This document shows positions 9,060 to 32,272 of a DNA stretch of 64,000 bases, piece by piece. Under the pieces are notes generated by a model that saw nothing but the letters and a program-made list of their open reading frames with translations, was not told the origin of the DNA and ran no database searches. Each line of letters begins with the position of its first letter. The first letter of the stretch is position 1. The position numbers and the translations under genes are program-made. Source of the stretch: Pseudomonas leptonychotis (lineage in GTDB: Bacteria > Pseudomonadota > Gammaproteobacteria > Pseudomonadales > Pseudomonadaceae); NCBI RefSeq assembly GCF_004920405.1, contig NZ_RFLV01000001.1, positions 1,364,001-1,428,000 of the forward strand, given 5' to 3'.

Positions 9060-10031
9060 TCAATCGACTACGATTTGATTCTTGCCCTGACGTTTGGCCT
9101 GGTACATGGCTGCATCGGCGCGGGCATACAAGGCATCGAGGCTGGTGTCTTCAGGCCGTAGATGGGTCAGGCCCTGACTCAGGGTCACGCCAAAGGTCGC
9201 GCCCTCATGGTTAAAACTCAGGCGGCGCACATCACGTTGCAAGCGTTCAGCAATCTGCTCGGCCAAGGCCGGCTCGCAGCGCGGAAATAACGCGGCAAAC
9301 TCCTCCCCGCCGATACGGCCGAAGAGATCGCCACGGCGCAACGTGGTTACACCGCTATAAGCCAAACGCTGTAACACCTGATCGCCCATCTGATGACCAT
9401 GGCGGTCGTTGATCTGCTTGAAGTCATCCAGATCGAGCAGCAAAAAGGCCAGCGGACTGCCGTATTCAAGGGCTTGCTCGAACTCACGTTGCCCGCACTC
9501 GAAGAAATGCCGGCGGTTGCTGCTCTGGGTCAGCACATCGGTGGTGGCCAGACGGTGCAGCTCGCCTTCCAGTAGCTTCTTCTCAGTAATGTCTTCGGCG
9601 ATCCCAACAATGATAGGCGGCTTGCCCGGGGCACTTTCACGGCTGACAAAACACTTGTCGCTCAGCCAGCGTAATTGCCCATCCGCGCGAATGATGCGGT
9701 ATTCGCGCGCCTCAACCGCTCCGGTTTCCAGCACTTGGGCCAGGCTTTCGGCGGCGTACTCCATATCATCCGGGTAGATGCTGTTGTGCCAGTTTTCATA
9801 GCCGGCCATCAGCATCGCAGCGGAACGACCGAAAATCCGCTCATAGGCTGGGCTGACATAAATTATCCGCTGGGCATTCCAATCAAGCGCCCACAACACT
9901 GCATTTACGCCACCTAGCAGGGTACTGAACAACTGCTCACGTTCCTGCAAGCGCGCGACCTCACCCCGTGTGTGTAACAACGCCAGGGTCAGCTCTTCAT
10001 GCTCAAGCTGATGCTTGCTGATTTCGTCCAT
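9060..10031 (-). CDS. PAS-GGDEF diguanylate cyclase
   Basis: About 323 residues. Start ATG 10031 (MDEISKHQLEHEEL) is preferred because the longer start at 10076 lies in the loop of the desaturase terminator. Order: short coiled-coil, PAS domain (about 35-150, VLWALDWNAQRIIYVSPAYERIFG), then GGDEF (about 160-320) with an intact active site GRIGGEEFAALF and an inhibitory site RRGD five residues before it. It should make c-di-GMP from two GTP in the cytosol under product inhibition. No membrane segment, so the PAS reads an internal signal. Confidence 0.9.
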   Translation of the reverse strand: MDEISKHQLEHEELTLALLHTRGEVARLQEREQLFSTLLGGVNAVLWALDWNAQRIIYVSPAYERIFGRSAAMLMAGYENWHNSIYPDDMEYAAESLAQVLETGAVEAREYRIIRADGQLRWLSDKCFVSRESAPGKPPIIVGIAEDITEKKLLEGELHRLATTDVLTQSSNRRHFFECGQREFEQALEYGSPLAFLLLDLDDFKQINDRHGHQMGDQVLQRLAYSGVTTLRRGDLFGRIGGEEFAALFPRCEPALAEQIAERLQRDVRRLSFNHEGATFGVTLSQGLTHLRPEDTSLDALYARADAAMYQAKRQGKNQIVVD

Positions 10032-10061
10032 AAGTACCGCCGAGCTACTCAGAGTTTTCAC

Positions 10062-10090
10062 AAAAAAGCCCGCCAAATAGGCGGGCTCTT
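10062..10090 (-). terminator. Terminator of the desaturase gene
   Basis: Arms AGCCCGCC (10067-10074) and GGCGGGCT (10080-10087) with a 5-base loop; on the minus strand the stem is followed by a T-run (complement of 10062-10067). It stands 20 bases after the desaturase stop and overlaps the upstream edge of the cyclase frame. Confidence 0.85.
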
Positions 10091-10106: not shown

Positions 10107-11294
10107 TTACATAGTTGCAGCCGGCCGCAGCGAATAGGTTTTCAACTGCTCGGCAAATTCACGCAACGACTGGATGCCACTGGCCTCGGCGTCACTGACC
10201 CAATGCTTGATGGCTTCCAGCATGTCGTGGCCATTGCTGCTGGTTTTGACCCAGATCTGCTGCAAGGCCAAGCGTTTTTCGTAGATCACTTTGAGCGCCT
10301 GACTTTGCTCCAGCATGCGCTGAATGCGTGCGTGGTGGCCTTCATCGAGCAGGCTCGGTTCACGCGACAGCAAGCGCTTGGCACGGTGGAAGTGATGGCG
10401 CACTGAGGCATCGGCCTTGGCCAGCTCTTGCTGCACCAGCGGCGCAATCACCAATTTGCGGTACTGCGCCATGATCTGGAAACGGTTGTTGAGGATCGCC
10501 ATGGCGGTGTCCATGTCCAGACTGCGCTTGCCCTCAACTCGGTGGGCGATGGGCGCAACCCGCTGCACTTTGGCCAATCCACAAGCACTGAACAATTGAA
10601 TCCAGGCCCAGCCCATGTCGAACTCCCACTTCTTCACCGACAGCTTGGCTGAGTTCGGGTAGGTGTGGTGGTTGTTATGCAGCTCTTCACCGCCAATCAA
10701 GATGCCCCAGGGCACTAGGTTAGTCGCCGCATCACGGCACTCGAAGTTGCGGTAGCCGACCGCGTGACCAAGGCCATTGATCACGCCCGCCGCCCATACC
10801 GGAATCCACATCATCTGGATCGCCCAGACGGTCATACCGAGCACACCGAACAGGGCCAGGTCGATCGCGCCCATGATGACGATACCGCCCACCGGAAAGC
10901 GCGAGTAAAGGTTACGTTCCAGCCAATCATCTGGACAATTCTTGCCGTAGATACGCAGGGTTTCCGGGTTTTGCGCTTCTTCGCGGTACAGCTCGGCACC
11001 GGTCAGCAGCACAGTACGCAGGCCTTTGACCACCGGGCTGTGTGGGTCATCGATGGTTTCGCATTTAGCGTGGTGTTTACGGTGGATGGCCGTCCACTCA
11101 CGGGTGTTCTGCGCCGTGGTTAACCACAGCCAGAAACGGAAGAAATGCTTAAGCGCCGGGTTCAGCTCAAGCGCGCGGTGCGCTGAGTAGCGGTGCAGAT
11201 AGACCGTGACGCTGACGATGGTCACGTGCGTCATCAGCAGCGTGACTGCGATCAACTGCCAGACCGACAGGTCAAGTAAACCGTTGTACCACAT
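10107..11294 (-). CDS. desA: Acyl-lipid / phospholipid delta-9 fatty acid desaturase
   Basis: 395 residues starting MWYNGLLDLSVWQLIAVT at ATG 11294. Integral-membrane di-iron desaturase that puts a cis double bond into acyl chains. Histidine boxes are intact: HRYSAHR, HRKHH and HNNHH, with TTAQNTREWTAIHRKHH matching the Pseudomonas DesA signature. Hydrophobic segments lie at about 10-30 and 150-195. The C-terminal ~120 residues are a charged helical tail. The frame runs on to 12038 antisense to the next gene; that extension is an artefact. The divergent neighbour is the signalling operon. Confidence 0.93.
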   Translation of the reverse strand: MWYNGLLDLSVWQLIAVTLLMTHVTIVSVTVYLHRYSAHRALELNPALKHFFRFWLWLTTAQNTREWTAIHRKHHAKCETIDDPHSPVVKGLRTVLLTGAELYREEAQNPETLRIYGKNCPDDWLERNLYSRFPVGGIVIMGAIDLALFGVLGMTVWAIQMMWIPVWAAGVINGLGHAVGYRNFECRDAATNLVPWGILIGGEELHNNHHTYPNSAKLSVKKWEFDMGWAWIQLFSACGLAKVQRVAPIAHRVEGKRSLDMDTAMAILNNRFQIMAQYRKLVIAPLVQQELAKADASVRHHFHRAKRLLSREPSLLDEGHHARIQRMLEQSQALKVIYEKRLALQQIWVKTSSNGHDMLEAIKHWVSDAEASGIQSLREFAEQLKTYSLRPAATM

Positions 11295-11660
11295 GGATCG
11301 TGTGCCTCGTGCAGAAGGAAGGACGCCGCTGATTTTTAGCACACGCCGAGAGCCATTATCCCTGACCCGGGTCAGAAAACCAGTTGGTCTTTCGCATAAG
11401 AATGCCGTGTGCTTAGCAGCATCTATACTGCCGGTCTTAGGCAAGGGACTGACCCTAACCCCATGAATACTCCGCAACACGCTTGGCGCCTGGGCTGCCG
11501 CTGTCGGCTGACTACGGCCTTGAACCGCTTGGTGGGTACCTACCCGCCGGCGGCGACCGTGCTCATGACCATTATTTCGGGCATGCTCAACCGACAAAAC
11601 CCGAACAACGGGGCAGCCCATGAGCGCTAAGCGTCGCGACGACGGACTAAGGCATAACAC
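11295..11660. promoter_or_regulatory. 366-base divergent promoter region, desA / signalling operon
   Basis: Carries the start signals for leftward desA and the rightward six-gene operon. The only coding candidate is the 55-codon frame at 11463-11630. No strong inverted repeat or sigma-54 site was recognised. Confidence 0.4.
11463..11630 (+). CDS. Possible small hypothetical protein
   Basis: A 55-codon frame starting MNTPQHAWRLGCRCRLTTAL, with a mildly hydrophobic stretch YPPAATVLMTIISGML. It ends 30 bases before the REC-HDOD gene on the same strand. The purine-rich AAGGGA is about 17 bases upstream, too far for a good ribosome-binding site. I do not recognise it and it may be leader sequence rather than a gene. 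Confidence 0.2.
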   Translation: MNTPQHAWRLGCRCRLTTALNRLVGTYPPAATVLMTIISGMLNRQNPNNGAAHER

Positions 11661-12794
11661 ATGCGTGTAATGATTCTTGAGGATGACAGCTGGATCGCCG
11701 ACCTGCTCAAGCAGATCGTTCTCAGCCTGCGCCCCAGCTGCCAAGTGGTATGCCTGGACAACATCGGCGCCGCGCTGCACGAATGGCAGCAACGCCCGGT
11801 CGACATGGTTATATCCGACTGGAACCTGCCGGATGGCCCTGGCACGCGCTTGCTCGAACAGGTTCGCCGCGACAACAGCAGCACCCCGCTGGTGGTGATC
11901 ACCGGCCGTTCGGACCGCGCCAGCGTGCTGGCAGTCCGCGCGTTGAAGATCAACGCCTTTATCAGTAAACCGTTCCAGGCGGCGCATGTGGCCACCAGCC
12001 TGGAGGCCTTGTTGCCGCCAGACATGGATGAGCAACAACCACTGCCTGAGACCACGCAGGACGACTTACTTACGCACTTGCACAGTCTGCCCAGTAGCGA
12101 ACTGCAACTCCCCCTCAAGGCGCATGTACGCGATCGTCTGGTGCAGAGTTTCAAAGGCGAGCCCATTGATCTACGTGAGCTGGCCAGCGAATGGCAGCAA
12201 GACCCTGCGCTGAGTGCGCGCCTGCTCAGCGTAGCCAATAGCAGCGCTTACAACGCAGCCGGTAAGCCTTGCTCTAACTTGCTCGAAGCCCTGCAAAAGC
12301 TGGGGGCGAACAACAGCCTCAACTTGGCCATGAGCCTGGCGCTGCGCCAATCCAGCGCATTGGAAAACCCGATCCTGAGCCTATTTGCCCAGGCCCACCT
12401 GGACAGCACTGAGCAATTGATCGAGCGCAGCACCAACCTTGCCCGCCAATGCGCCATTGACCCGGCGCCGTTCCATTGCGCGGCCCTGCTGCACCGCATG
12501 GGCGAACTGTGCGTGCTGTACCAAGCACAGGTGTGGCAAGACAGCGGCCAGAGTTTCAGCGAAGACCAGGTCATGCAGGCCATTGATCAGTTCAGCGGCC
12601 CCTTCGCCATCAGCATCAAGGCGCAATGGCAATTGCCGATGCACCTGCGCGAACTGATCGGCGCGTGCTACAACCTGCCGAGCCATAACGTCAAACGCGA
12701 AAATATCCTGATGCGTCTAGCGGCCTGCGAACTCGACACAGAACCCGACGATCCGGAATGTGCACGCTTGCGGCGGCTGGCGGGGCTGGCTTGA
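11661..12794 (+). CDS. Response regulator with HDOD output domain
   Basis: 377 residues, first gene of the signalling operon. Receiver domain at 1-120 with acidic pair Glu7/Asp8-Asp9, phosphoacceptor Asp53 (VISDWNLPDG), ITGRSD and ISKPF (switch Thr and Lys). HDOD domain at about 135-345 (PALSARLLSVANSSAYN, CAALLHRMGELCVLY). HDOD proteins act in signalling without a clear catalytic site; they are often linked to c-di-GMP or motility control. AAGG lies ahead of ATG 11661. The next gene follows after 40 bases. It is probably one of the outputs of the downstream kinases. Confidence 0.9.
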   Translation: MRVMILEDDSWIADLLKQIVLSLRPSCQVVCLDNIGAALHEWQQRPVDMVISDWNLPDGPGTRLLEQVRRDNSSTPLVVITGRSDRASVLAVRALKINAFISKPFQAAHVATSLEALLPPDMDEQQPLPETTQDDLLTHLHSLPSSELQLPLKAHVRDRLVQSFKGEPIDLRELASEWQQDPALSARLLSVANSSAYNAAGKPCSNLLEALQKLGANNSLNLAMSLALRQSSALENPILSLFAQAHLDSTEQLIERSTNLARQCAIDPAPFHCAALLHRMGELCVLYQAQVWQDSGQSFSEDQVMQAIDQFSGPFAISIKAQWQLPMHLRELIGACYNLPSHNVKRENILMRLAACELDTEPDDPECARLRRLAGLA

Positions 12795-12834
12795 GCGCCC
12801 ATGTTGCTGCGCCCAACTGTAATGGGGCTGACTG

Positions 12835-15800
12835 ATGGCTAAACCGCTCAAGGCCACGGCGATTCACTGGATAGTGGGGCTCGGCAGCCTGGGGCTGGCG
12901 GTTTTCTTTAGCGTGCTCGGCAACGTTGCCCTAAAACAGCAGGACACCTTCTGGAACCTGCAAATCACCAAACAGCATGAGCTGCAAAGCCTGACCCTGC
13001 GCAACAGCCAGCAGCAGCTGCAACAGCAAGCACAATTGCTGGCCGAAACCATCGCCGCCGACGCCTGGCTGGTCGAGCTGGTGCGCCAGGCCTACGTACA
13101 GCGCAGCAGCGAGCAGGCCGATGAGCTGAGCCTGACGGCTATACGCAACCAGTTGTTCACCCGCCTGGCGCCGCGCTGGCGCAACTTGCAAGGCATGCGT
13201 CCGTTCGCCCTGTATGTGCACCTGGCGCCGACAGCCGAAGTGCTATTGCGGGTACATGAACCCCAGTGGTTTGCCGACTTTCCCGCTGCGCAACGGCCTA
13301 TGCTGCTCGACAGCCTGGGCCAATCCTCACCTACCGCAGGCCTGGCAGCCAATGGCCAGAACCTGAGCATGCGCGCCATTGTGCCGCTGTACGTGGAAAG
13401 CGCAGAGGGCCGCCTTAATGTCGGTGCGCTGGAGGTCAGTCTTGACGTGCTGAGCAACTTGCAACAACTGGACAACGAGCTGGGTGCCGGGGTTGCCTTA
13501 CTGCTCAAGCAGCTGACACAGGGCCCAGGCCGCGGCGGTGAGGCGCTACGTGCCACTGTAGAGGGCCATGAGTATTGGCAACTGGCAGGCTTTTCCCAAG
13601 TGCAGGTGCAGCATTGGCACGCGCAGCACCAGCTGCCGGCTCCCGAAGCCGGTGACACCTTTAAGCTGCTCGATGATCAAGGCCGCACCTTCCTGCTCAA
13701 TCAAGTGCGCCTGAGTGGCTACTCACCCGGCGCAAACGGCACCGACAGCCCCGTGCTGGCGCTGACGTGGCGTGATATCAGCGACCTCTACAGCCTTCAC
13801 CAACAAGACCAGCGCTGGCTGGTAGGCAAATGGTTGCTAGCCTGGCTCGCTGCCGAAGCGCTGCTGCTCCTGCTGCTGCAGGCCACGCAACACAGCAGCC
13901 AACGCGTCATGCGGCGCCATAACGCTGAGCTGCAGGATAAGCAGCAACAAACTGAAGAGTCGCGTCAGCTGCTAGGGCTGATCGCCGAGGCGCAAGCGGC
14001 CTATATCAACCGGCATAACCAGCGCGAAGCCTTCGAGTCACTGCTCGGGCGAATCCTCGACGTCAGTGCCAGCCAGTTCGGCTTTATCGGTGAAATTTTA
14101 CAAGACGATGCCGGTGCGCCCTTTCTGCGCACCTTTGCCATTAGCAACATCGCTTGGGATGCAGAAACCCGCGCGTTCTATGATACCCACGCAGCTCAGG
14201 GCCTGGAGTTTCGCAGCCTCGACAGCCTGTTCGGCCAGGTTATTCGCAGCGGTGAGGCGTTGATCACTAACGACCCGGCCAACCACCCCAAGCGCGCCGG
14301 CTTGCCGCCCGGGCATCCGCCGTTAAAAGCCTTTGCTGGCCTGCCGATTCACGCCAACGGCGAGCTGCTCGGCATGCTCGGCCTGGCCAATCGCGAAGGC
14401 GGGTACAACGCCGACTTTGCCACCCAGTTGCAGCCCCTACTGATTACCCTGGGCCAGCTGTTTGACGCGCTACGCCGTGACAGCCAACGCGAACTGGCCC
14501 AGCAACGCTGGCAACGCCAGCAGGCCGCCCTGCGCGCACTCAACGAAATCGCCGCGCTACCTAGGTTAAGTACCAAAGAGCAGCTGCGTCAGGCCCTGCA
14601 ACTGGGGGCAGAGTTCTATGGCATGCCGATCGGCATCATCAGCCAGATCGACGCGCAAACCTATCGGGTGATGGTCAACGTTTCACCGCCCGGCAGCCTA
14701 GAGGACGACCAGTGTTTTGCCCTGGGCGACACCTACTGCAGCATTGCCATGCACAGCAATGATGTACTGACCATCGCGGCCATGGGAGAGAGTGAATATG
14801 CCGCGCACCCTTGCTACCCGCTATTCGCCCTGGAAAGCTACATCGGCACCAGTGTCTGGGTCGCCGGCCAACGCTTCGGCACCCTGTGTTATGCCGCCAG
14901 TGAGGCCCGCAGCACCGCGTTCGATGATGCGGATGAAGAGTTCATGCGGCTGTTCGCCCGCTGGGTCGGCGCCACGCTGGAACGCCTGCAGCACGAAGAG
15001 CAAACCCGTGAGGCGCGGCGTTTCCTGCAAGCGGTGCTCGATTCGGCCACGGGGGTGAGCATCATTACTACCGACACCGAGGGCCTGATTACCTTATTCA
15101 ACACCGGAGCAGAACGCCTGCTGGGCTACCGCAGCGACGAAGTGATCGGCCAGCACAGCCCGGCGCTGTTCCACCTAGCGGAGGAAACTCAAGCCCGCAG
15201 CGCCCAACTCAGCTTCGAGGAAGGCTGTGAGATCAAGAATTTTGAAGCACTCACCTGGATACCGGCCAAGGGCGAACCGGAAACCCGGCAGTGGACCTAT
15301 GTGCGCAAGAACGGCGAACCGCGCATCGTCAACCTGACTGTCAGCGCCATGCGTGACAACCACAACAACATCAGTGGCTACCTGGGTATCGCCAGTGACA
15401 TCAATGAACTGCAACAGGCCACGCGCGCACTGCAGAAGAGCGAGAGTCGCTTCCGTGGCCTGGTGGCCAACCTGCCAGGCGCGGTATACCGCTGCCGCAG
15501 TGATGCGGATTGGACCATGAGCTACCTGAGCGATGAGATTGAGCTGTTGTGTGGCTACCCCGCGCACGAGTTCATCAACAATCGCGTGCGCAGCTTCTCC
15601 AGCGTGGTGCACCCCGACGATCTGCCGATCACCTTCCGCGCGGTGGCCGCCATCGAACGCCAGGAATCTTTTGAACTGACCTACCGTCTGCTGCACGCCA
15701 ATGGTCACAGCGTCTGGGTGCGGGAAAAAGGCCGCGGTGAATACGACAACCACGGCAAGCTGCAGTGGATTTCCGGGTTTATCTGGGACATCAGCGACCG

Positions 15801-17292
15801 CAAGGCCGTCGAAGACCAGTTACAACTCAGTCAACAGCGCTTCAGCAACGCCTTCAGCATTGCGCCCCAGGGCATGGCCCTGGTGTCACTGCAGGGCGAG
15901 TGGATGGAAGTTAACGACCAGCTCTGCGACATGCTCGGCTACAGCCGCGAACAACTGCTCAGCAGCACCTTCCAACAGATCACCCACCCCGACGATCTGG
16001 ATGCAGACCTGCAGCACATCGAAGAATTGCTCGCCGGAGAGATCAATACCTACCAGATGGAAAAACGCTACCTGGACAGCCAAGGCCGCATCATCTGGGT
16101 CTTACTCAGTGTGGCGCTGGTACGCAACCGCGATAACCAACCCGTGCACTTCGTCTCACAGATTCAAGATTTCAGTGAACGCATTGCCAGTGAAATGGCC
16201 GTGCGCGAGCGCGAGGACTACCTGCGTACGCTGCTCGACAACGTGCTCGACGCCATCATCACCGTCGATCAACAGGGCTATATCGAAACCTTTAATCGCG
16301 CCGCCGAGCACATTTTCGGCTACAGCCATCTAGAAGTTTCCGGGCACCGCGCCACCCTGCTACTGCCGGAACCGCAGCGCTCGATGCGCGCCCGCTACCT
16401 CAGCCACTTCCTGAAAACCGGCATTCAAAAAATGCTCGGCAAAGAGGTTGAGCTCACCGCCATGCGCAGCAATGGCGAATCCTTCACCATCGAATTGGCC
16501 GTCTCGCAGATCAGTTACCAGGGCGAGCGACGCTTTATTGCGGTGATCCGCGATATCGAGGAACGCAAACGGACCGAGCGAATGAAGAATGAATTCGTCT
16601 CCACCGTCAGCCATGAACTGCGCACCCCATTGACCGCCATCTCAGGCTCCCTCGGTCTGATCAATGGCGGCGCACTGGGTGAGGTGCCAGCGGGCATGCA
16701 ACACATGCTGCAGATCGCGCAGGACAACAGTCAGCGTCTCAACCTGTTGATCAACGACCTGCTCGACATGGAAAAACTGGTGGCCGGCAAGATGTTCTTC
16801 GAACTGCAGGATGAGGCGCTGCAGCCGCTGCTCGAGAAGGCCATCTTAGAAAATCAGCCCTACGGCGACCGCCACCACGTTCAACTTGAGCTGCACGGCC
16901 CTGCGACCCCAGCGCGCGTGCGGGTCGACAAACTGCGCCTGGCCCAAGTGCTGGCCAACCTGCTGTCCAATGCGGCGAAGTTCTCACCCCGAGGCCAACG
17001 TGTGGACGTTCGCGTGCAGCAACACGACGACGCGTACGTACGCGTCAGCGTGACTGACCACGGCCCCGGTGTACCGGAAAACTTCCAACCGCGAATATTC
17101 AGCAAATTCTCCCAGGCCGACGCCACTGATACTCGGCAAACAGGCGGCACCGGCCTGGGCCTGGCAATCAGCAAAGAAATCATCGAGCGCATGGACGGGA
17201 AGATCGGCTTTGACTCGATTGAGGGCCGGGGCAGCACCTTCTGGTTCGACCTTCCCATCAGCGTCGCCACAACACAGGAAGCCAGCCTATGA
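12835..17292 (+). CDS. Membrane sensor histidine kinase, periplasmic sensor + 2 GAF + 4 PAS
   Basis: 1485 residues, very large. Order: transmembrane helix (about 10-33), periplasmic domain (about 34-330), second helix (about 333-350), GAF (about 400-545), GAF (about 566-722), four PAS domains (about 728-860, 871-990, 1001-1120, 1126-1245), HisKA with VSHELRTP (phospho-His1260), and HATPase_c (about 1365-1480) with N-box LANLLSNAAKFS, DHGPGVP and GGTGLGLAIS. No receiver is attached, so its phosphate must go to another protein, most simply the receivers encoded around it. It overlaps the next gene by 4 bases (ATGA). Confidence 0.92.
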   Translation: MAKPLKATAIHWIVGLGSLGLAVFFSVLGNVALKQQDTFWNLQITKQHELQSLTLRNSQQQLQQQAQLLAETIAADAWLVELVRQAYVQRSSEQADELSLTAIRNQLFTRLAPRWRNLQGMRPFALYVHLAPTAEVLLRVHEPQWFADFPAAQRPMLLDSLGQSSPTAGLAANGQNLSMRAIVPLYVESAEGRLNVGALEVSLDVLSNLQQLDNELGAGVALLLKQLTQGPGRGGEALRATVEGHEYWQLAGFSQVQVQHWHAQHQLPAPEAGDTFKLLDDQGRTFLLNQVRLSGYSPGANGTDSPVLALTWRDISDLYSLHQQDQRWLVGKWLLAWLAAEALLLLLLQATQHSSQRVMRRHNAELQDKQQQTEESRQLLGLIAEAQAAYINRHNQREAFESLLGRILDVSASQFGFIGEILQDDAGAPFLRTFAISNIAWDAETRAFYDTHAAQGLEFRSLDSLFGQVIRSGEALITNDPANHPKRAGLPPGHPPLKAFAGLPIHANGELLGMLGLANREGGYNADFATQLQPLLITLGQLFDALRRDSQRELAQQRWQRQQAALRALNEIAALPRLSTKEQLRQALQLGAEFYGMPIGIISQIDAQTYRVMVNVSPPGSLEDDQCFALGDTYCSIAMHSNDVLTIAAMGESEYAAHPCYPLFALESYIGTSVWVAGQRFGTLCYAASEARSTAFDDADEEFMRLFARWVGATLERLQHEEQTREARRFLQAVLDSATGVSIITTDTEGLITLFNTGAERLLGYRSDEVIGQHSPALFHLAEETQARSAQLSFEEGCEIKNFEALTWIPAKGEPETRQWTYVRKNGEPRIVNLTVSAMRDNHNNISGYLGIASDINELQQATRALQKSESRFRGLVANLPGAVYRCRSDADWTMSYLSDEIELLCGYPAHEFINNRVRSFSSVVHPDDLPITFRAVAAIERQESFELTYRLLHANGHSVWVREKGRGEYDNHGKLQWISGFIWDISDRKAVEDQLQLSQQRFSNAFSIAPQGMALVSLQGEWMEVNDQLCDMLGYSREQLLSSTFQQITHPDDLDADLQHIEELLAGEINTYQMEKRYLDSQGRIIWVLLSVALVRNRDNQPVHFVSQIQDFSERIASEMAVREREDYLRTLLDNVLDAIITVDQQGYIETFNRAAEHIFGYSHLEVSGHRATLLLPEPQRSMRARYLSHFLKTGIQKMLGKEVELTAMRSNGESFTIELAVSQISYQGERRFIAVIRDIEERKRTERMKNEFVSTVSHELRTPLTAISGSLGLINGGALGEVPAGMQHMLQIAQDNSQRLNLLINDLLDMEKLVAGKMFFELQDEALQPLLEKAILENQPYGDRHHVQLELHGPATPARVRVDKLRLAQVLANLLSNAAKFSPRGQRVDVRVQQHDDAYVRVSVTDHGPGVPENFQPRIFSKFSQADATDTRQTGGTGLGLAISKEIIERMDGKIGFDSIEGRGSTFWFDLPISVATTQEASL

Positions 17293-19244
17293 ATAGGCGT
17301 CCGGGTCACCCTCTAACCCCGCATAATGAATCCAGTCGCCTGGCGGCCCTGTTGGACTTCGAGGTGCTGGATACGCCCGCCGAGCAGATGTTCGACACCA
17401 TCACAGCACTGGCCGCGCAGATATGCGGCACGCCCATCGCGCTGATCTCGCTGATCGACGCCGAACGCCAGTGGTTCAAGAGCCGGGTCGGTCTGGATGC
17501 CAGCGAAACGCCGCGAGAAATAGCCTTTTGTGCCCATGCGATCAACGGCGATCGCCTGTTCGAGGTGGACAACACCCTGCTGGACCCGCGCTTTTGCGCT
17601 AACCCGTTGGTCACCGGCGACCCGGATATTCGCTTCTACGCCGGTATGCCCCTGAGCGATGGTCAGGGCCACAACCTGGGCACCCTGTGCGTGATCGACC
17701 GTCAGCCACGCCATCTAAATGACGAGCAACGCCACGCCCTGCGCCTGCTGGCCGAGCAGACTGTGCAACTGTTCGAGCTACGCCTGCAAGCCCGTCGCCA
17801 GCGCGAGCAAGCCGCCCTGCACAAGGCCATGTTCCGCAGCGCCGGCACCGCCGTGCTGGTCACCGACCTGGACGGGTTGATCCAACAAACTAGCCCCGGC
17901 GTGGCCACCCTGCTCGGCTATAACCCCGAGCAATTGCAGGGCCAGCCTTTGGAGCTGCTACTGGCTCAGAACAGCGATCAACTGCCCGATGATCCGCAGC
18001 GCCCACAACTAGCAACATTGGCAGGCCAAGGCCAGGTGCATGAGGTGCAGTTACGCCACAGCAACGGTCAAAGCGTGCCGGTGCTGCTGACCCTGGCCCC
18101 GATCAGCCTGGAAGCTCAAGCTCCTATGGGTTACCTGTGCATCGCCCATGACCTGAGCGACCGCGAAGAAGCCCTGCAACGTCTGCACAAAGTAGCGGCC
18201 CACCTACCCGGCATGGTCTATCAATTTATCCAGCGCGCCGATGGCAGCAGCTACTTCCCCTATGCCAGCCGAGGCATCGAGATAATCTATGGCCTGACGC
18301 CGGAAGCGGTCAGCCAGGATGCAGCGCCGGCATTCGCCCTGATTCACCCCGATGATTTGCAGGTAGTGACCGAGAGCGTCGCCCTGTCGGCGGTCTCCCT
18401 GCAGCCCTGGTACCGCGAGTACCGCGTGTTGCACCCACAACGAGGGCTCATCTGGGTCGAGGGCCGCTCCACGCCACAGCTCTTGGACAATGGTGCAATC
18501 ATCTGGCACGGCTTTATCAACGATATCAGCGAACGCAAGCATATGGAGCGGCTAAAGAGTGAGTTCGTCTCGACCATCAGCCATGAACTGCGCACCCCGT
18601 TGACCGCAATCGCCGGCTCCCTTGGCCTGGTCAATGGCGGCGCGCTGGGCCAGGTGCCTCAGGCCATGGCCGAAATGCTGCACATCGCCGAGCTGAACAG
18701 CCAGCGCCTGCGCCAGCTGATTGATGACTTGCTCGATATGGACAAGCTGATTGCCGGCAAGATGGACTTCAACCTGCAGCTGCTGGAACTCGACACCCTA
18801 CTGACCGAATGCAGCACCAGCCACCAAAGCTTTGCCCAGCATCACGGTGTGCAACTGCTGCAGGTGCCCGGGCCGCCCCTGCAGATCGTGGCCGACTCTT
18901 TCCGCCTGCAGCAGGTGCTGAGCAACCTGCTGTCCAACGCCCTGAAATTTTCCCCGGCCCAGGGCGTGGTGCGCCTGTTCAGCCAGCTGCACGGCAATTG
19001 CGTACGTATCCAGGTCAGCGACCAGGGGCCCGGCATACCAGCGGACTTTGCCGGGCGCATGTTCGAGAAGTTCTCCCAGGCCGATGCCAGCGACCGTCGA
19101 CAGAAGGGCGGTACCGGCCTTGGCCTGGCCATCAGCAAAGAGCTGATCGAACATATGGGCGGACGCATCGGCTTCGATTCAGCACCCGGCCAGGGCAGTA
19201 CCTTCTGGATCGAACTGCCTCTCGACGCGGCAGCTGAGGCATGA
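17289..19244 (+). CDS. Cytosolic GAF-PAS-PAS sensor histidine kinase
   Basis: 651 residues, no membrane segment. Order: GAF (about 25-165, LISLIDAERQWFKSRVGLD, a common N-terminal GAF type), PAS (about 172-290), PAS (about 293-415), HisKA with ISHELRTP (His432), HATPase_c (about 530-645; LSNLLSNALKFSP, DQGPGIP, GGTGLGLAIS). The stretch after the His box (LTAIAGSLGLVNGGALGQVP) nearly repeats that of the two flanking kinases, pointing to tandem duplication of the catalytic core with different sensors. No receiver attached. Starts and ends with 4-base overlaps. Confidence 0.92.
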   Translation: MNRRPGHPLTPHNESSRLAALLDFEVLDTPAEQMFDTITALAAQICGTPIALISLIDAERQWFKSRVGLDASETPREIAFCAHAINGDRLFEVDNTLLDPRFCANPLVTGDPDIRFYAGMPLSDGQGHNLGTLCVIDRQPRHLNDEQRHALRLLAEQTVQLFELRLQARRQREQAALHKAMFRSAGTAVLVTDLDGLIQQTSPGVATLLGYNPEQLQGQPLELLLAQNSDQLPDDPQRPQLATLAGQGQVHEVQLRHSNGQSVPVLLTLAPISLEAQAPMGYLCIAHDLSDREEALQRLHKVAAHLPGMVYQFIQRADGSSYFPYASRGIEIIYGLTPEAVSQDAAPAFALIHPDDLQVVTESVALSAVSLQPWYREYRVLHPQRGLIWVEGRSTPQLLDNGAIIWHGFINDISERKHMERLKSEFVSTISHELRTPLTAIAGSLGLVNGGALGQVPQAMAEMLHIAELNSQRLRQLIDDLLDMDKLIAGKMDFNLQLLELDTLLTECSTSHQSFAQHHGVQLLQVPGPPLQIVADSFRLQQVLSNLLSNALKFSPAQGVVRLFSQLHGNCVRIQVSDQGPGIPADFAGRMFEKFSQADASDRRQKGGTGLGLAISKELIEHMGGRIGFDSAPGQGSTFWIELPLDAAAEA

Positions 19245-22132
19245 AACGCATCATTAAACCGCTGCAGGCCCGACCACGATTGCTGCCCCTGCTGGTACTG
19301 CTGTGCAGCTGCATTGCCACCCTGTTTGCCTGGTACAGTCTGCGCCAGAGCCAACAGGCTGCCGCCGAGCTGCATTTCCAGCAGCTCAGCGTGGAGGTAC
19401 TCGAAGCCATCGAAAAGCGTATGGGCAACCACCAGCAGATCCTGCTCGGCGGCGCCAGCTTGTTCGAGGCCAGTGAGGCGGTCAGCCGCGAGGAGTGGCA
19501 GCGCTATATCCAGCGCCTGGAGTTGAGCAGCAACTATCCCGGCATTCAGGGTGTGGGTTACAGCCAGGTGATCCGCGCCCACCAGCTGGCCGAGTTCGAG
19601 GCAGCGCGCCGCGCCGAGGGCTTCCTCAACTTCGCCGTACGCCCGCCAGGCCCTCGCGAGCTGTACACCTCAATTCTCTATCTGGAGCCGTTTAGCGGAC
19701 GTAACCTGGCCGCCTTTGGCTATGACATGTTTTCCGAGCCGGTGCGCCAGGCCGCCATGCTCAAGGCTGCACGCAGCGGCCAGGCCCAACTTAGCGGCAG
19801 AGTCACCCTGGTTCAGGAGACACACGGCCCAGTGCAGGCCGGGCTACTGATGTATGTGCCCATCTATGAGCCCGGCAGCCCGCTGCGCAGCGAGCAGGAG
19901 CGGCTGCAAGCCTTACAGGGCTTTGTCTACAGTCCCTATCGGGTCAACGACCTGATGAGCGGCATACTCGATGGCCGCGAGCTGGAGCTCGACTTCGCCC
20001 TGTTCGCCGGCCCCCAGCTCGACCCCGAGCAGCGCCTGTACCTCAGCCACCCACGCCTGGAGCAAACCGAAGCGCCCCCTAGCCAGGCCCAGCTTCAGCT
20101 CTTCGGCCAGACCTGGACTGCGGCCTTCTATGCCCAGCCTGGCTACTACGCCAGCTTTCAGCAGGGTCAAAGCAGCCTGCTGATTCTCGGCGGCGCCATC
20201 AGCCTGCTGTTGTTCTTCCTCGCCCGCACCCTGGCCATCGGGCAGCAACAAGCCCTGGCTCTCGCCCATGACATGACGGCTCAACTGCGCGCACAGCAAG
20301 ACGAGCTGCGCCGCAGTGATGCGCGTCTGAATCGGGTACTGCAGGGTGGCCATGACGGCTGGTGGGATCTGGATATGACCCGCCGCAGCTTCTTCGCCTC
20401 GGCCCGCGCCTGGCAGATGCTCGGCTACCCCGACGAAGGACCGCAACCGCCCCTGGGCAGCTTGCAACAGCTTGTGCACCCCGATGACCTGCGCGCCTTG
20501 CAGCACCAGCTGCAACCGCCACCCGGCCAGCAGGAGCACCACCTGAACCATGAGTGCCGCCTCTTGCGCCAAGACGGCCAGAGCCTGACGGTGTTGCTGC
20601 GCGCCCTGGTGCAGTGCACCAGCGAGGGTCAGGTACTGCGGATCAGCGGCACAGCCATGGACCTCACCGAGCAAAAGCGCATCGAGCAGTTGAAGAATGA
20701 TTTTGTCTCCACCGTCAGCCACGAACTGCGCACCCCGCTGACCTCCATCGCAGGCTCCCTGGGCCTGATTAACGGCGGCGCCTTTGGCGCGGTACCCGAG
20801 GCCATGCGGCCGATGCTGAAGATTGCTCAGCAGAACAGTCAGCGCCTCGGCCATCTGATCAACGACCTACTGGATATGGACAAGCTCGCAGCAGGCAAGC
20901 TCAACTTCGAGCTGGGCAGGCTTGACCTCGAAGAACAGCTGCACGAAAGCCTGCAGGCTAACCAGTCCTATGCCAATCAGCATGAGGTTGAATTGATTCT
21001 GGATACCACCCTCCCCGCCACCATTCGCGCCGACGCCATGCGCCTGCAGCAAGTGCTGGCCAACTTCCTTTCCAACGCCATCAAGTTCTCCTGCCCAGGC
21101 AGCCAGGTGCATCTGCACAGCACCTTGCGTAATGGCCGAGTGAGGATCAGCGTCAGCGACCAGGGGCGCGGAATACCCGAGCATTTTCGTGGCCATATTT
21201 TCCAAAAGTTCTCCCAGGCCGAGAGCGGTGACCAGCGGCAGAAAGGCGGCAGCGGCCTGGGCCTGGCCATCAGTAAGGAACTGATCGAGCGCATGGGGGG
21301 CCAGGTCGGTTTCGATTCCAAAGAAGGCCAAGGCAGCACCTTCTGGTTTGAGCTGCCCGTGCTGGCCGACAACCTGCCAGCGCTCAGCCGGCAACAACCG
21401 AGCATTCTGGTAGTAGAGGACGAGGAGGACATCTCCCACCTGCTGCAGCTGCTACTGCAGCGCGCCGGTTATCGGGTGCTACAGGCCCATAGCCTGGCCC
21501 AGGCGCGCCAGTTGCTGGCCAGCGAAGTCATTGCCGCCATTACCCTGGATCTGCGTTTGCCCGATGGCAACGGCCTGCAGCTGATCAAAGAACTGCGTCA
21601 AGATCCGGCCTGCCAAGGGCTGCCCATTCTGGTGATCTCCGCCGCCAGCGAGCAGGGACGCCTGACCCTGCAAGGCGGCCTGCAGGGCATCGACTGGCTG
21701 GACAAACCTATTGACCCGCGACGCCTGCTCACTAGCCTGCACCAGTCACTCAAGGGCCTGACGGACAGACCCCGAGTGCTGCATGTTGAGGATGATGCTG
21801 ATCTGCAGCGGGTGATCGCCGAGCAGGGCCGCCCACTGGCCGATTTCATTGCTGCGTCTAACTTGGCCGAAGCCCGCAACCATCTGGCCGCAGGCGGTCT
21901 AGACTTGGTGTTGCTGGATATTGAACTGCCCGATGGCAACGGCTTGGAGCTGATCGAGGAGATTCATCGCCTGTATCCCGGCTTGCCGGTGGTGATATTG
22001 TCTGCCGCAGAACTGTCCACCGAACAACTCAATCGGGTCGAGGCAGCCCTGGCCAAATCTCGCACCGATACACAGCACTTCCTCGACGTACTGGCCCGCC
22101 TGCTGCCAACCAAGGAGAGTCACCATGCCTGA
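19241..22132 (+). CDS. CHASE-PAS hybrid sensor histidine kinase with two receivers
   Basis: 963 residues. Order: transmembrane helix (14-32), CHASE periplasmic sensor (about 60-260, NYPGIQGVGYSQVI), second helix (about 310-332), PAS (about 363-480), HisKA with VSHELRTP (His494), HATPase_c (to about 710; DQGRGIP, GGSGLGLAIS), receiver 1 (about 724-840, Asp770 in LDLRLPDG), receiver 2 (about 844-960, Asp893 in LDIELPDG). It is the only kinase of the cluster with its own receivers, so it may be the hub from which phosphate passes to the Hpt protein at 22504. The next gene overlaps by 8 bases. Confidence 0.92.
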   Translation: MKRIIKPLQARPRLLPLLVLLCSCIATLFAWYSLRQSQQAAAELHFQQLSVEVLEAIEKRMGNHQQILLGGASLFEASEAVSREEWQRYIQRLELSSNYPGIQGVGYSQVIRAHQLAEFEAARRAEGFLNFAVRPPGPRELYTSILYLEPFSGRNLAAFGYDMFSEPVRQAAMLKAARSGQAQLSGRVTLVQETHGPVQAGLLMYVPIYEPGSPLRSEQERLQALQGFVYSPYRVNDLMSGILDGRELELDFALFAGPQLDPEQRLYLSHPRLEQTEAPPSQAQLQLFGQTWTAAFYAQPGYYASFQQGQSSLLILGGAISLLLFFLARTLAIGQQQALALAHDMTAQLRAQQDELRRSDARLNRVLQGGHDGWWDLDMTRRSFFASARAWQMLGYPDEGPQPPLGSLQQLVHPDDLRALQHQLQPPPGQQEHHLNHECRLLRQDGQSLTVLLRALVQCTSEGQVLRISGTAMDLTEQKRIEQLKNDFVSTVSHELRTPLTSIAGSLGLINGGAFGAVPEAMRPMLKIAQQNSQRLGHLINDLLDMDKLAAGKLNFELGRLDLEEQLHESLQANQSYANQHEVELILDTTLPATIRADAMRLQQVLANFLSNAIKFSCPGSQVHLHSTLRNGRVRISVSDQGRGIPEHFRGHIFQKFSQAESGDQRQKGGSGLGLAISKELIERMGGQVGFDSKEGQGSTFWFELPVLADNLPALSRQQPSILVVEDEEDISHLLQLLLQRAGYRVLQAHSLAQARQLLASEVIAAITLDLRLPDGNGLQLIKELRQDPACQGLPILVISAASEQGRLTLQGGLQGIDWLDKPIDPRRLLTSLHQSLKGLTDRPRVLHVEDDADLQRVIAEQGRPLADFIAASNLAEARNHLAAGGLDLVLLDIELPDGNGLELIEEIHRLYPGLPVVILSAAELSTEQLNRVEAALAKSRTDTQHFLDVLARLLPTKESHHA

Positions 22133-22511
22133 ACTCAAGCGCATCCTGCATGTGGAGGACGACCCTTCGATCCAGGCTGTGGCCAAAGTTGCCCTAGAAG
22201 CCGTGGGTGGCTTTCAGGTACTCAGCTGCTCATCCGGACAAGACGCGCTGGATCAATTGCAGGGCTTTGCCCCGGACTTTATCCTGCTGGATGTGATGAT
22301 GCCGGACATGGATGGCCCACAAACCCTGGCGCGCATCGCTCGGCTGATCGATATCAACCTCGTGCCGGTCGCCTTTATGACCGCCAAAGTGCAGCCCGCA
22401 GAAATCGCTCATTACCGCAGCCTCGGCGCTCGCGACGTGATCATAAAACCCTTCGACCCCATGCAGCTGGCCGCACAAGTGCGCAAAATCTGGAGCCAGG
22501 CCCATGAGTGA
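22125..22511 (+). CDS. Stand-alone receiver-domain response regulator
   Basis: 128 residues, a single CheY-like domain: HVEDDPSIQ (acidic pair), phosphoacceptor Asp56 in LLDVMMPDMDG, FMTAKVQ (Thr), IIKPFDP (Lys). All key residues are intact and there is no output domain. It could be a phosphate shuttle or sink between the three kinases and the Hpt domain of the next gene, or act by protein contact. It overlaps the genes on both sides by 8 bases. Confidence 0.9.
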   Translation: MPELKRILHVEDDPSIQAVAKVALEAVGGFQVLSCSSGQDALDQLQGFAPDFILLDVMMPDMDGPQTLARIARLIDINLVPVAFMTAKVQPAEIAHYRSLGARDVIIKPFDPMQLAAQVRKIWSQAHE

Positions 22512-24156
22512 AGGCAAGAGCGCGGCCGATGAGCTGCAACAACACCTGCAACGGCTGAGTAATGCCTTTGCCTTGCGTTTGCAGGAAGAGCTGCCGGCGC
22601 TGGGGCAGGACGCCGAGCGCCTGCTGCATGCCGCCGAGCAGCACGAACAGTTGCAACACCTGCAAAGCCTGCGTGACCAGTTACACAAACTCGCCGGGGC
22701 CGCCGGCACCTTCGGTTTCAGCAGCCTCGGCCAACGCGCTCGCGAATTGGAGCAAGAGGCCGATCAATGGCTGCAAACCCTGCAGCAAGAACAGCAAAGC
22801 CTGCAGGATTTCATTGGCAACCTGCAGCAACTCGCCACCCAGCAGTACCAGGCCGAAAGCACCCAGGCGCCCGCTACCCAAGCCGCCAAAGCCCCTCGCC
22901 CCAGCAGCAATGCCCGGCGCATCTACATCCTCGAAGATCAACTGGCGATTGGCGAGAACATGCGCCTAACGCTAAACAACTTCGGCTACCAGGCCGAGCA
23001 CTTCACCCGCATCGTCGACCTCGACGCGGCACTGCAACAGCAACTGCCGGACGCACTGATCGTCGACGTTAATTTGCCCGACGAAGAACTTACCGGCCTG
23101 GCATATGCCGCCAGCCTGCAACAGCGCTTGGACGAACCCCTGCCGCTGCTGGTGATCACCACCCAGAACGACTTCGCCACCCACCTGGAAGCGGTGCGGG
23201 TCGGAGCCATGGGCTTCTTCACCAAACCGGTGGATATCCCCCAGCTGGAGAACCGTCTGGAGCGCTGTTTTTCCCAACAACAGGGTGAACCCTACCGGGT
23301 ATTGATCATCGACGATGACCGCGAACTGGCCAGCCGCTTCAGCCTGATCCTGCGCGGGGCCAATATGCTGGTGGAAATGCTCCACGAGCCCGCCGATATC
23401 TTCGAATGCATGCGTGACTTCAACCCCGAAGTGGTACTGCTGGATGTCAGCATGCCGGATTGCACCGGCCCGGAGCTGGCACAGATCATCCGCATGAACG
23501 ACGAATGGCTGCGCGTGCCGATCATTTATCTGTCCGCGGAAACCGATATCGGCCGACAGATGAACGCGTTGATCAAGGCCGGTGACGACTTCGTCACCAA
23601 ACCAATCTCCGACAATGCCTTGGTCGCCGCCGTCTTCTCCCGCGCCCAACGTGCACGTCTGCTGAGCAACGCCCTGTCGCGCGACAGCCTGACCGGCCTA
23701 CTCAAACACGCCGACATCAAGGAGCAGGCAGCGGTCGAGCTGGAGCGCGCCCAACGCAGCGGCAAACCCGCCAGCGTGGCCATGCTCGATATCGACTTCT
23801 TCAAGAAGGTTAACGACAGTTACGGCCATGCCGCCGGTGACAATGTTATCCGTGCCCTGGCCAACCTGCTGCGCCAGCGTTTGCGCCGCATTGATAGCCT
23901 GGGCCGTTACGGCGGCGAAGAATTTCTGGTGGTATTGCCGGACTGCCCAGCAGATCAGGCAAAACGAATTCTCGATGAAATTCGTCAACGTTTCGCTGAA
24001 TTGAACTTCATCGCCAGCGGCAGTGAGTTTTCAGTCACCCTGAGCGCCGGCATCGCCTCCACCGCAGACGCCCCCACCAGCTCAGGTGATTTCTTGGAGA
24101 AGGCCGACCGCGCGCTCTACGCCGCCAAACATGGCGGTCGTAATCAAGTGCGTTAG
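22504..24156 (+). CDS. Hpt-REC-REC-GGDEF diguanylate cyclase
   Basis: 550 residues, cytosolic, last gene of the operon. Order: Hpt domain (about 10-110) with LHKLAGAAGTFG (phospho-His61), receiver 1 (about 138-262, Asp188 in VDVNLPD), receiver 2 (about 265-385, Asp314 in LLDVSMPDCTG), GGDEF (about 392-548) with GRYGGEEFLVVL and an inhibitory site RRID five residues before it. It should make c-di-GMP, with activity set by phosphorylation through its own Hpt and receivers. It is the only Hpt-bearing protein of the cluster, so the relay probably ends here. Confidence 0.92.
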   Translation: MSEGKSAADELQQHLQRLSNAFALRLQEELPALGQDAERLLHAAEQHEQLQHLQSLRDQLHKLAGAAGTFGFSSLGQRARELEQEADQWLQTLQQEQQSLQDFIGNLQQLATQQYQAESTQAPATQAAKAPRPSSNARRIYILEDQLAIGENMRLTLNNFGYQAEHFTRIVDLDAALQQQLPDALIVDVNLPDEELTGLAYAASLQQRLDEPLPLLVITTQNDFATHLEAVRVGAMGFFTKPVDIPQLENRLERCFSQQQGEPYRVLIIDDDRELASRFSLILRGANMLVEMLHEPADIFECMRDFNPEVVLLDVSMPDCTGPELAQIIRMNDEWLRVPIIYLSAETDIGRQMNALIKAGDDFVTKPISDNALVAAVFSRAQRARLLSNALSRDSLTGLLKHADIKEQAAVELERAQRSGKPASVAMLDIDFFKKVNDSYGHAAGDNVIRALANLLRQRLRRIDSLGRYGGEEFLVVLPDCPADQAKRILDEIRQRFAELNFIASGSEFSVTLSAGIASTADAPTSSGDFLEKADRALYAAKHGGRNQVR

Positions 24157-24313
24157 ACCCGCCCGCTATGGCTGCAGCAGAGCACGATGCTTACGCCTTG
24201 AGGTCAGCTAAACCTATTACCTGGGCGGTTAATAGGCGTCGCCGCTTGGTTTTGTGAAATTTATAGCGTAGATTTTCATGAAATTATCTAAATAGAATTT
24301 CATGAGGCGCGCC
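24157..24313 (+). promoter_or_regulatory. Promoter region of the gamma-glutamylputrescine module
   Basis: AT-rich from 24250 on. It holds the palindrome TTTCATGAAA (24274-24283) and a second TTTCATGA (24299-24306) overlapping the first possible ATG, plus TGAAATTT at 24255. These repeats could be the operator of the XRE-cupin regulator encoded at 25676; this is inference. Confidence 0.4.
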
Positions 24314-30333: not shown

Positions 30334-32007
30334 TCAGCTGTTATTCAGCCCGAGCAACGGCTGGCGCATGCCAAATACCAGAAAGCGCGCCAGCTCTGGG
30401 AGCGGCAAGGCTTTGCTGATCAAGTAGCCTTGCACTTGGTCGCAACCGTACTGGCGCAGCAGCGCCAGTTGTTCAGCATTCTCCACGCCCTCACCGACCA
30501 CCTGCAGATTGAGGTTGTGCGCCAGGTTGATCATCGCCCGCACCAGCTGCCGATTCTCCGGGCGCTCACTCATGCCGCCGACAAAACTTTTATCGATTTT
30601 CAGCAAGGTGATTGGCAGGTTATTCAGGTGCACGAAAGACGAGAAGCCGGTGCCAAAATCGTCGAGGGAAAAACGCACCCCGAGACGAGCCAAGGCCAAC
30701 ATGGTTTGTTGCACCTGATCGCTGCGGCGCATCACTGCGGTTTCTGTTAACTCGAACTCCAACCACTGCGCGTCCACACCGCGCTCTTCGATCAGGCGGC
30801 TCAGGGTTGGCAGCAACTGGCTGTCCTGAAACTGGCGGAATGACAGGTTAACCGCCATATGCAGCGCCGGCACGCCGCGCCCACGCAGCCATTGCATGTC
30901 ACGCAAGGCACGCGAGATCACCCAGTAGCCGAGTGGCACGATCAGGCCACTCTCCTCGGCCAACGGCACGAATTCGTTTGGACCCAGCAGGCCATGCTCG
31001 CGGTGCTGCCAACGCACCAGCGCTTCCAAGCCGACGATACGCCCGGTCTGTAAACACAGGCGCGGCTGATAATGCAGCTCCAATTCATCACGGCGCAGGG
31101 CACGACGCAGCTCACTCTCCAGGTCAGCCTGGTTGCGGGCGCTGCGGTTGATCCGCTCGTCATAGATATGAAAGGTGCAGCCCTGTTGGCTCTTGGCCTG
31201 CTGCATGGCGATATGTGCGTGCCACATCAATGGGTCGGCGCGGCTCTCGGCACGGGAATGGACCAGGCCCAGGCTGCAGCCGATCAGCAGGCTTTCGCCG
31301 TCAATCCAGTAAGGCTCACCGAGAGCCTCGGTAATCTGCACCGCCAGGCGTTCGGCGCGCTGCGGATCACGGCGGCTGTCGAGCAACAAGGCGAACTCAT
31401 CGCTACCCAGGCGCGCCACTTGATCGCCGGCCTGCAACTGCGCCTTGATCCGCGCGACCACTTGCAACATCAGGTGATCGCCACCCTGATAACCGAGGGC
31501 ATCGTTGGCGTGGCGGAAATTATCCAGATCAAGATGCCCAAGCGTCAGGCCACGGCCTTCGTTTTCGGCCAGGCGCGCAGCGAGCAGGGTCTGAAAACCC
31601 TGACGGTTGGCAATCCCAGTCAACGCATCCTGCTCGGCCAGGCGGTGCAAGGTGTCATTAAGGTGGCCGCGCTCACGCGCATAACGCAGGCAGCGGCGCA
31701 GCACCTCGCCGCTGAGCTGGTCGCGCACCAGCCAGTCGCACACGCCCTCAGGGACCGCTTCGGGCTCAGCATCCAACAGCAACACAGTAGGAAGCGCACA
31801 GCGCCCGGAAGAAGGCAGGTACTTGGCGGTGGTCAGCAGGATGGCGTTACTGGGCTTATCGAACAGCGCGCTAGCTGCCTCCCATGACGGTGCGGTAATC
31901 AGTGCATAGCCACTGCCGAGCGCACTCAGGCGTTCACGCAGCAACTGTGCCCAGCCCGGCGTTTCCGCCAGCAGGAGCAAGCGTAATGGTTCGACGAACG
32001 CGGACAA
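30334..32007 (-). CDS. Receiver-like / degenerate GGDEF / EAL protein
   Basis: About 557 residues. A TTG at 32007 follows GGGGGAAG at good distance and no ATG is nearby; another TTG is at 32028. Order: a receiver-like domain without the usual phosphoacceptor surroundings (about 5-120), a GGDEF domain with GSDEF instead of GGDEF and no RxxD inhibitory site (about 135-295), then EAL (about 305-550) with EALVRW, ELTE, DDFGTGFSSF, KIDKSF and EGVEN all present. Probably a c-di-GMP phosphodiesterase whose GGDEF part binds GTP as a regulator. PAO1 has an EAL-type gene beside rep, as here. Confidence 0.85.
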   Translation of the reverse strand: MSAFVEPLRLLLLAETPGWAQLLRERLSALGSGYALITAPSWEAASALFDKPSNAILLTTAKYLPSSGRCALPTVLLLDAEPEAVPEGVCDWLVRDQLSGEVLRRCLRYARERGHLNDTLHRLAEQDALTGIANRQGFQTLLAARLAENEGRGLTLGHLDLDNFRHANDALGYQGGDHLMLQVVARIKAQLQAGDQVARLGSDEFALLLDSRRDPQRAERLAVQITEALGEPYWIDGESLLIGCSLGLVHSRAESRADPLMWHAHIAMQQAKSQQGCTFHIYDERINRSARNQADLESELRRALRRDELELHYQPRLCLQTGRIVGLEALVRWQHREHGLLGPNEFVPLAEESGLIVPLGYWVISRALRDMQWLRGRGVPALHMAVNLSFRQFQDSQLLPTLSRLIEERGVDAQWLEFELTETAVMRRSDQVQQTMLALARLGVRFSLDDFGTGFSSFVHLNNLPITLLKIDKSFVGGMSERPENRQLVRAMINLAHNLNLQVVGEGVENAEQLALLRQYGCDQVQGYLISKALPLPELARFLVFGMRQPLLGLNNS

Positions 32008-32272
32008 ACAACTTCCCCCACAGCACAAATAAAGAGCATTGAAACCGCTCGGATGCGTCGTAATCGACGTCTAATCACGCACATCCTTGTGTCAGTGGCG
32101 CGCGCCCTGCGGCATGGCAGGCCCCGAAAGTGGCACCAGAGTACTGGATTAGGAAAATTAACCAAGCCTGGCGGTTTGCCATTATGTGCACTGCAACACA
32201 CTTCCAGATGGTCGCGGCAGAAAGCCTCAGGCCTGTTAAAATGCGCGCCCATTCCGCCTGACGATTGATTCA

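Follow-up and report, generated by a model that had tools for sequence, protein, structure and literature searches.

The 64,000-nucleotide stretch of the Pseudomonas leptonychotis genome analysed here (contig NZ_RFLV01000001.1, positions 1,364,001 to 1,428,000; hereafter "the window") encodes six genes, all on the plus strand at 11661..24156, that probably make up a dedicated phosphorelay, split over several proteins, through which related kinases converge on one diguanylate cyclase. As judged from sequence, the route would run from the kinases to Asp56 of a lone receiver protein (lone REC; 22125..22511, 128 amino acids), then to His61 in the histidine phosphotransfer (Hpt) domain of an Hpt-REC-REC-GGDEF cyclase (22504..24156, 550 amino acids), then to a receiver of the same cyclase and finally to its GGDEF domain, the output being cyclic di-GMP (c-di-GMP). 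The lone REC and the cyclase that carries the Hpt domain look like the conserved core of the system, and the kinases look like interchangeable add-ons.

Three of the other genes encode the kinases K1 (12835..17292, 1485 amino acids), K2 (17289..19244, 651 amino acids) and K3 (19241..22132, 963 amino acids), with DHp histidines His1260, His432 and His494, respectively. K1 and K2 have no receiver, and K3 is a hybrid of the order CHASE-PAS-HisKA-HATPase-REC-REC with Asp770 and Asp893. In K1, Pfam identified two GAF domains, PAS, HisKA and HATPase, and TIGR00229 identified four PAS stretches; K2 is organized as GAF-PAS-PAS-HisKA-HATPase. A hydropathy scan predicted two membrane spans in both K1 and K3, flanking an outside part of ~270-290 residues, and a single hydrophobic stretch in K2 (residues 37-56) that lies inside its GAF domain, so K2 has no clear membrane anchor. 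K2 and K3 appear to be accessory. From the open reading frame (ORF) coordinates the junctions along the six genes are a gap of 40 bases followed by overlaps of 4, 4, 8 and 8, and we infer from this spacing that the genes form one transcription unit. An earlier note, made from the letters of this DNA, had described six same-strand genes with this spacing and these domains, and the ORFs, Pfam and TIGR00229 bear it out. It had put His61 at 22504, which is in fact the start of the cyclase gene; the codon for this proposed phosphotransfer histidine is at 22684..22686 (plus strand).

We surveyed the core across the genus and beyond. Orthologues (E <= 1e-108) were found in 36 of 398 Pseudomonas genomes, our own included, at 38 loci, and all genus counts include the window. 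At class level, matches (E <= 1e-75, some without an Hpt domain) were found in 46 of 369 genomes, again with our own. Stretches of up to ~20 kb were analysed for the 38 genus loci, for 50 of the 51 class matches outside our own genome and for two loci of genome G029 from an order sample; the last two sets make up 52 class/order loci, and the class match in G747, cut by the contig start, was left out. Four of the 52 have no detected Hpt domain. All counts exclude the named Pseudomonas loci L021-L025 and L045, which probably duplicate others, and six named non-Pseudomonas loci stand outside the 52. Domains were labelled with profiles built on those of the window itself rather than with Pfam, and genes were chained at gaps below ~130-160 bases.

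The lone REC is present in all 38 genus loci; in 37 of them its gene lies immediately before that of the cyclase, 26 of these with the same 8-base overlap. The exception is L170, where a kinase gene lies between the two. Among the class/order loci it directly precedes the cyclase in 28 of 52, and 22 of those 28 have a kinase upstream in the chain. At L206 the protein directly before the cyclase is a 359-residue REC protein, itself preceded by a lone REC of 130 residues. The remaining genes are variable. Kinases anywhere in the stretch number one (13 loci), two (5), three (10) or four (10) across the genus, or 14, 4, 10 and 10 loci when only upstream same-strand genes are counted. A hybrid kinase (HK-REC) gene occurs in 24 of 38 loci and is missing from the other 14, and an HDOD gene occurs anywhere in the stretch in 30 of 38 (28 of 38 among upstream same-strand genes). 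The kinase, hybrid and HDOD counts are lower bounds because some stretches are cut by contig ends; L162, for example, is cut ~3 kb upstream. A recurrent minimal arrangement in the genus is one K1-like kinase, the lone REC and the cyclase, and outside the genus the order HK-REC-REC, REC, cyclase is common. At L211 a CheA-REC protein precedes the lone REC and a cyclase of the window's family, which bridges the chemosensory (Halomonas-type) and kinase-array arrangements. The neighbours of the cyclase at L216 were considered as chemosensory proteins and rejected, as they are DUF349 and HlyD proteins.

Other species have nearly the same gene order, so the arrangement is not due to chance. The module is real and conserved as a unit, and it is probably functional. 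The search for the six-gene neighbourhood across Pseudomonas that the earlier note had proposed recovered a two-gene core, and not the set of six that it had treated as the unit, since the extra kinases, the hybrid and the REC-HDOD gene come and go. Two variants of the module's genes were seen along the way. The K1-like kinase of L144 (4392-9620, minus strand; 1742 amino acids) has an extra C-terminal receiver at residues 1622-1735 and is a hybrid derived from a kinase type that normally has no receiver; the locus was scored as hybrid because this kinase ends in a receiver. At L228 (6399-9089, plus strand) an Hpt-REC-REC-PAS-HK-REC fusion lies directly upstream of the lone REC and cyclase, as if the N-terminal relay part of the cyclase had been reused on a kinase.

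The cyclase has the features of a receiver-controlled (PleD-like) enzyme: an active-site GGEEF at residues 470-474, an RxxD inhibitory site (RRID, 461-464) and a second receiver that adjoins the GGDEF domain. Both receivers keep their Asp (REC1 Asp188, REC2 Asp314) and Lys, and the REC1 Thr is residue 219. The AlphaFold2 model (mean predicted local distance difference test score 82.7, predicted TM-score 0.63) has a four-helix N-terminal region with His61 in the second helix (46-69) and places Asp188 and Asp314 at strand ends. PleD was the top match by fold and by sequence; whole-model TM-scores in the structure search were low (0.28-0.32), so the domain arrangement differs or is uncertain. Assignment to the PleD equivalog (NCBIfam NF007135) was rejected at 208.8 bits versus a curated cut-off of 474. 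A chemosensory (Wsp-like) cluster was also rejected, as Pfam detected no CheA, CheW or chemoreceptor in the six genes plus one flanking gene per side. In the three longer cyclases (L201, L214 and L219), our own profiles detected no receiver fused before the Hpt domain.

In a whole-genome search with the kinase core of K1 (27 matches), K2 and K3 were 61% and 60% identical to it, at 287 bits, and the next-best match was 39% identical at 138 bits; by sequence, the three are a private kinase family within the genome. Identity among them is 74-76% in the DHp domain versus 52-57% in the CA (ATPase) domain, as expected if the choice of partner was held constant while the rest drifted. The residues predicted to set specificity (six positions) are TAGSGL in K1 and K2 and TSGSGL in K3. 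The corresponding class, T[AS]G[SA][GA]L, takes in 82 of 91 kinases of the genus loci, 21 of 39 in other loci (some of these mere neighbours) and none of 24 other kinases of the genome. In a FastTree phylogeny of 154 kinases, 118 from these loci group together (support 0.97) and none of the 24 kinome sequences, drawn from the window's genome alone, falls inside. A further set of 16 genomes, from 14 other genera, was chosen for having a kinase next to the cyclase; in 14 of them the kinase that best matches K1 is found beside the cyclase. These kinases thus travel with the core, which makes it unlikely that they act only on distant regulators, the outcome that the earlier note had named as refuting its proposal.

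Wherever a REC gene adjoins the cyclase gene, His61 is conserved, in 37 of 37 genus sequences and 30 of 30 others (two of them from the named non-Pseudomonas loci), or 67 of 67 in total. A widespread Pseudomonas paralogue, putatively GcbA/PA4843, provides a comparison. In the Pseudomonas sequences it is 40-47% identical to the window's cyclase, chiefly across REC1-REC2-GGDEF, and GcbA is reported to have two REC domains (PMC9355167). Unlike the window's cyclase, the 23 GcbA-type sequences have lost the Hpt histidine (22 of 23) and the REC1 Lys (23 of 23); REC1 Asp is present in 15, and the Asp, Ser and Lys of REC2 are present in all 23. This set counts genome G012 twice (L012 and L104), includes L105 and L106 from other families and L205, one of the four class/order loci without a detected Hpt domain, and its single sequence scored with the histidine is L041, which has a divergent N-terminus. 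The analysed flanks of the 23, which for 9 of them span only ~1.1-1.5 kb, showed no separate lone REC. The paralogue also occurs in the window's genome, where Pfam identified one REC and no Hpt domain. The window's cyclase was rejected as GcbA-type, as it has His61 and groups with lone-REC loci, away from the GcbA-type sequences, on a REC2-GGDEF tree with weakly supported deep branches. On this tree, thinned to 77 sequences, the histidine requires three changes, and all 13 sequences without it have no adjacent REC. By plain counting, His61 occurs in 40 of 40 sequences with an adjacent REC versus 24 of 37 without (Fisher p 1.9e-5). This pattern fits the relay while falling short of proof.

All the residues of a His-Asp-His-Asp relay are encoded together in the operon: a kinase histidine (His1260, His432 or His494), Asp56, His61 and Asp188 or Asp314. 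A kinase without a receiver cannot donate phosphate to an Hpt histidine. The order kinases, lone REC, Hpt domain, cyclase receiver is proposed for this reason and because the lone REC is the sole receiver-only protein common to the 14 of 38 genus loci that have no hybrid. In the proposed mechanism, K1, K2 and K3 would sense different inputs, autophosphorylate on their closely similar DHp domains and phosphorylate Asp56 of the lone receiver, which would hand the phosphate to His61 of the cyclase; His61 would then hand it to a receiver within the same protein. Retention of its Asp in 93 of 96 aligned cyclase sequences and in 23 of 23 of the GcbA-type makes REC2 the likeliest effector receiver; as the receiver adjoining GGDEF it would be the switch, with REC1 as a second acceptor or modulator. 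Phosphorylation would raise GGDEF activity, limited by the RxxD inhibitory site, and the receivers of K3 itself may be a second entry or a brake. We infer all of the phosphotransfer steps, their direction and the sign of the output. The earlier note had already proposed that related kinases converge through an Hpt step on one c-di-GMP cyclase, and that much is retained; its direct wiring of the kinases to the Hpt domain is not, as the receiver-free kinases cannot feed it. The lone REC, to which it gave no role, is likely the entry point of the relay. The Hpt domain is single within the operon, as had been stated, but not in the genome, where 17 Hpt matches were found.

Several observations weigh against this reading. 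An adjacent REC is missing from 24 of the 52 class/order loci and from 4 of the 6 named non-Pseudomonas loci, and His61 is also kept in 24 of 28 non-genus sequences without one, as well as in L170, so a lone REC need not be present beside the cyclase. The Fisher result for His61 rests on about three losses, and a kinship-aware pairing test with 3 usable pairs has no power; an association of REC1 integrity with the lone REC (Fisher p 0.0025 by plain counting) was not borne out in the pairing test. The Hpt match itself is modest, at 26.5 bits in Pfam against a cut-off of 24.6 and 34.7 bits in the genome-wide search. Among the kinases, 9 of the 91 from genus loci fall outside the specificity-residue class, six of them with TAGPEL, and in 2 of the 16 genomes of other genera the top K1 match is an unlinked kinase. 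The TAGPEL kinases are an accessory subtype found in L140, L142, L145, L148, L150 and L156, possibly drifting to another partner.

The same data can be read in other ways. The kinases could phosphorylate REC2 (or REC1) of the cyclase directly, with the Hpt domain and the lone REC serving to drain the signal, as a phosphate sink or reset path. Receiver-free kinases do act directly on receivers in ordinary two-component systems, and REC2 is the best-conserved receiver, kept even in the GcbA-type paralogue, which has neither the Hpt histidine nor a visible lone REC. The placement of the lone REC directly before the cyclase (37/38) and the retention of His61 (67/67) speak for the relay, but do not decide the matter because a sink would conserve both as well, and we regard direct control as unlikely rather than negligible. 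A relay closer to that of the earlier note, in which K1 and K2 signal by way of the hybrid K3, whose own receivers feed the Hpt domain, would suit the hybrid-REC-cyclase order seen outside the genus and the Asp residues of the K3 receivers. It is improbable, however, as 14 of 38 genus loci do without a hybrid and still have a kinase, the lone REC and the cyclase. Lone receivers also often act as diffusible outputs, and with 17 Hpt matches in the genome there is scope for cross-wiring, so the lone REC might be an independent, CheY- or DivK-like output with the cyclase under other kinases. The overlapping lone REC-cyclase gene pair found across families, and the private kinase family linked to that pair, leave this account very doubtful.

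If the phosphorelay operates as proposed, it would offer a compact natural example of a relay core that is held fixed while close relatives differ in how many input kinases they have and of what kind, and the integration of several sensors into one c-di-GMP decision, as well as specificity sharing by duplicated sensors, would become directly testable. A broader version, to which we give slightly less than even credence, is that the two-gene core is a plug-in hub at which bacteria gain or lose kinases of one matched family, or a CheA pathway, with many inputs integrated as phosphate on one receiver and read out as c-di-GMP. Among 29 K1 matches of at least 235 bits in the 16 genomes of other genera, 22 are linked to the cyclase and 7 are unlinked, as read from coordinates. 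The existence of unlinked kinases of the same family suggests that a hub may take input from elsewhere, and if the broader version is true the 7 unlinked ones would be further inputs to this hub, which would then be a Gram-negative counterpart of the logic of the Spo0 sporulation relay, with a second-messenger output.

The first gene of the operon (11661..12794, plus strand) encodes a REC-HDOD response regulator of 377 amino acids with Asp53 (Pfam REC 67.8 bits, HDOD 80.1 bits). It would be an accessory branch, possibly a second output or a c-di-GMP-responsive one. The HDOD protein SadB of P. fluorescens is reported to bind c-di-GMP, and the second domain of SadB might be the binder (PMC6543031); by analogy the window's HDOD protein may sense c-di-GMP, which we take as a lead only. 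Another GGDEF-bearing gene lies further upstream in 25 of the 38 genus loci (three short or cut) and is absent in the window and L101. The sole such gene tested, at L022 (P. guineae, 2040-4337, plus strand), encodes PAS-PAS-GGDEF-EAL and adjoins REC-HDOD. A terminator-like hairpin 3' of the last gene of the window's operon (24224..24243, plus strand) is weak, given 19 such sites versus a shuffle mean of 14.8, and an uninformative promoter scan found 0 sites versus a shuffle mean of 3.9.

Upstream of the operon is a gene for a DesA-type fatty acid desaturase (10107-12038, minus strand), whose listed ORF is longer than the gene and has a tail resembling an ISL3 transposase. Several relatives also have a desaturase gene beside the module. 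To tell insertion of the module from its loss, 8 relatives that lack it but carry the downstream FAD oxidoreductase were compared, and none showed a desaturase gene within 1.5 kb. Beyond the desaturase gene is a PAS-GGDEF protein (9060-10076, minus strand), a second predicted cyclase near the operon, and ~6 kb downstream of the operon is a GGDEF-EAL protein (30334-32028, minus strand; EAL 256.9 bits), a possible phosphodiesterase.

The earlier note knew of no described system with this gene set. Our text searches likewise found no paper on the multi-kinase cluster, though subscription journals were mostly outside their coverage, and the accessible portion of a review of c-di-GMP sensing does not mention Hpt, phosphorelay or GcbA (PMC8846402). 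The architecture of the cyclase, on the other hand, is in print. Chemosensory cluster 2 of Halomonas titanicae KHS3 includes an Hpt-REC-REC-GGDEF cyclase for which the authors suggest a phosphorelay, and they know of no characterized cyclase so organized (PMC5907407, as excerpted). Like the window's, it combines an RxxD site with phosphorylatable residues in each of the three domains; unlike the window's, it is encoded with a receiver-bearing CheA-like kinase and a chemoreceptor, and the excerpted text describes no HisKA kinase array (PMC5907407). The relay proposed here, if true, would suggest a role for this widespread architecture, called uncharacterized in that 2018 paper. In Anabaena, mutants support a His-Asp-His-Asp relay from CdgK onto the cyclase CdgS, which resembles the window in ending on a receiver-GGDEF cyclase and in its large CHASE/PAS/GAF kinase (PMC9927289). 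There, in contrast, the REC1-REC2-Hpt part belongs to a single hybrid kinase, the phosphorylated residue of CdgS is Asp60 in its own receiver, and the available sections mention no lone REC or second kinase (PMC9927289). PleD, WspR and DgcR share receiver control of GGDEF with the window's cyclase, but PleD has no Hpt domain and WspR contains a single receiver. PleD becomes active when one of its receivers is phosphorylated (PMC5907407), whereas both receivers of the window's cyclase keep their Asp.

Spo0 and HptB offer parallels in wiring. The sporulation kinases of the former are scattered orphans and its output is transcriptional. In Bacillus, several kinases act on the lone REC Spo0F, which passes phosphate through the histidine phosphotransferase Spo0B to the REC output protein Spo0A (PMC6136694). 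Spo0B is a separate protein whereas the window's Hpt domain is fused to the cyclase, and the likeness is one of logic, with no homology claimed. In P. aeruginosa several hybrid kinases share HptB as a separate Hpt protein. HptB is described as acting through HsbA and the cyclase HsbD, so that there too an Hpt pathway is tied to a cyclase in Pseudomonas (PMC5085249). A c-di-GMP phosphorelay as a kind is already known, and the new points are entry through a lone REC, an Hpt domain fused to the cyclase and a variable set of matched kinases.

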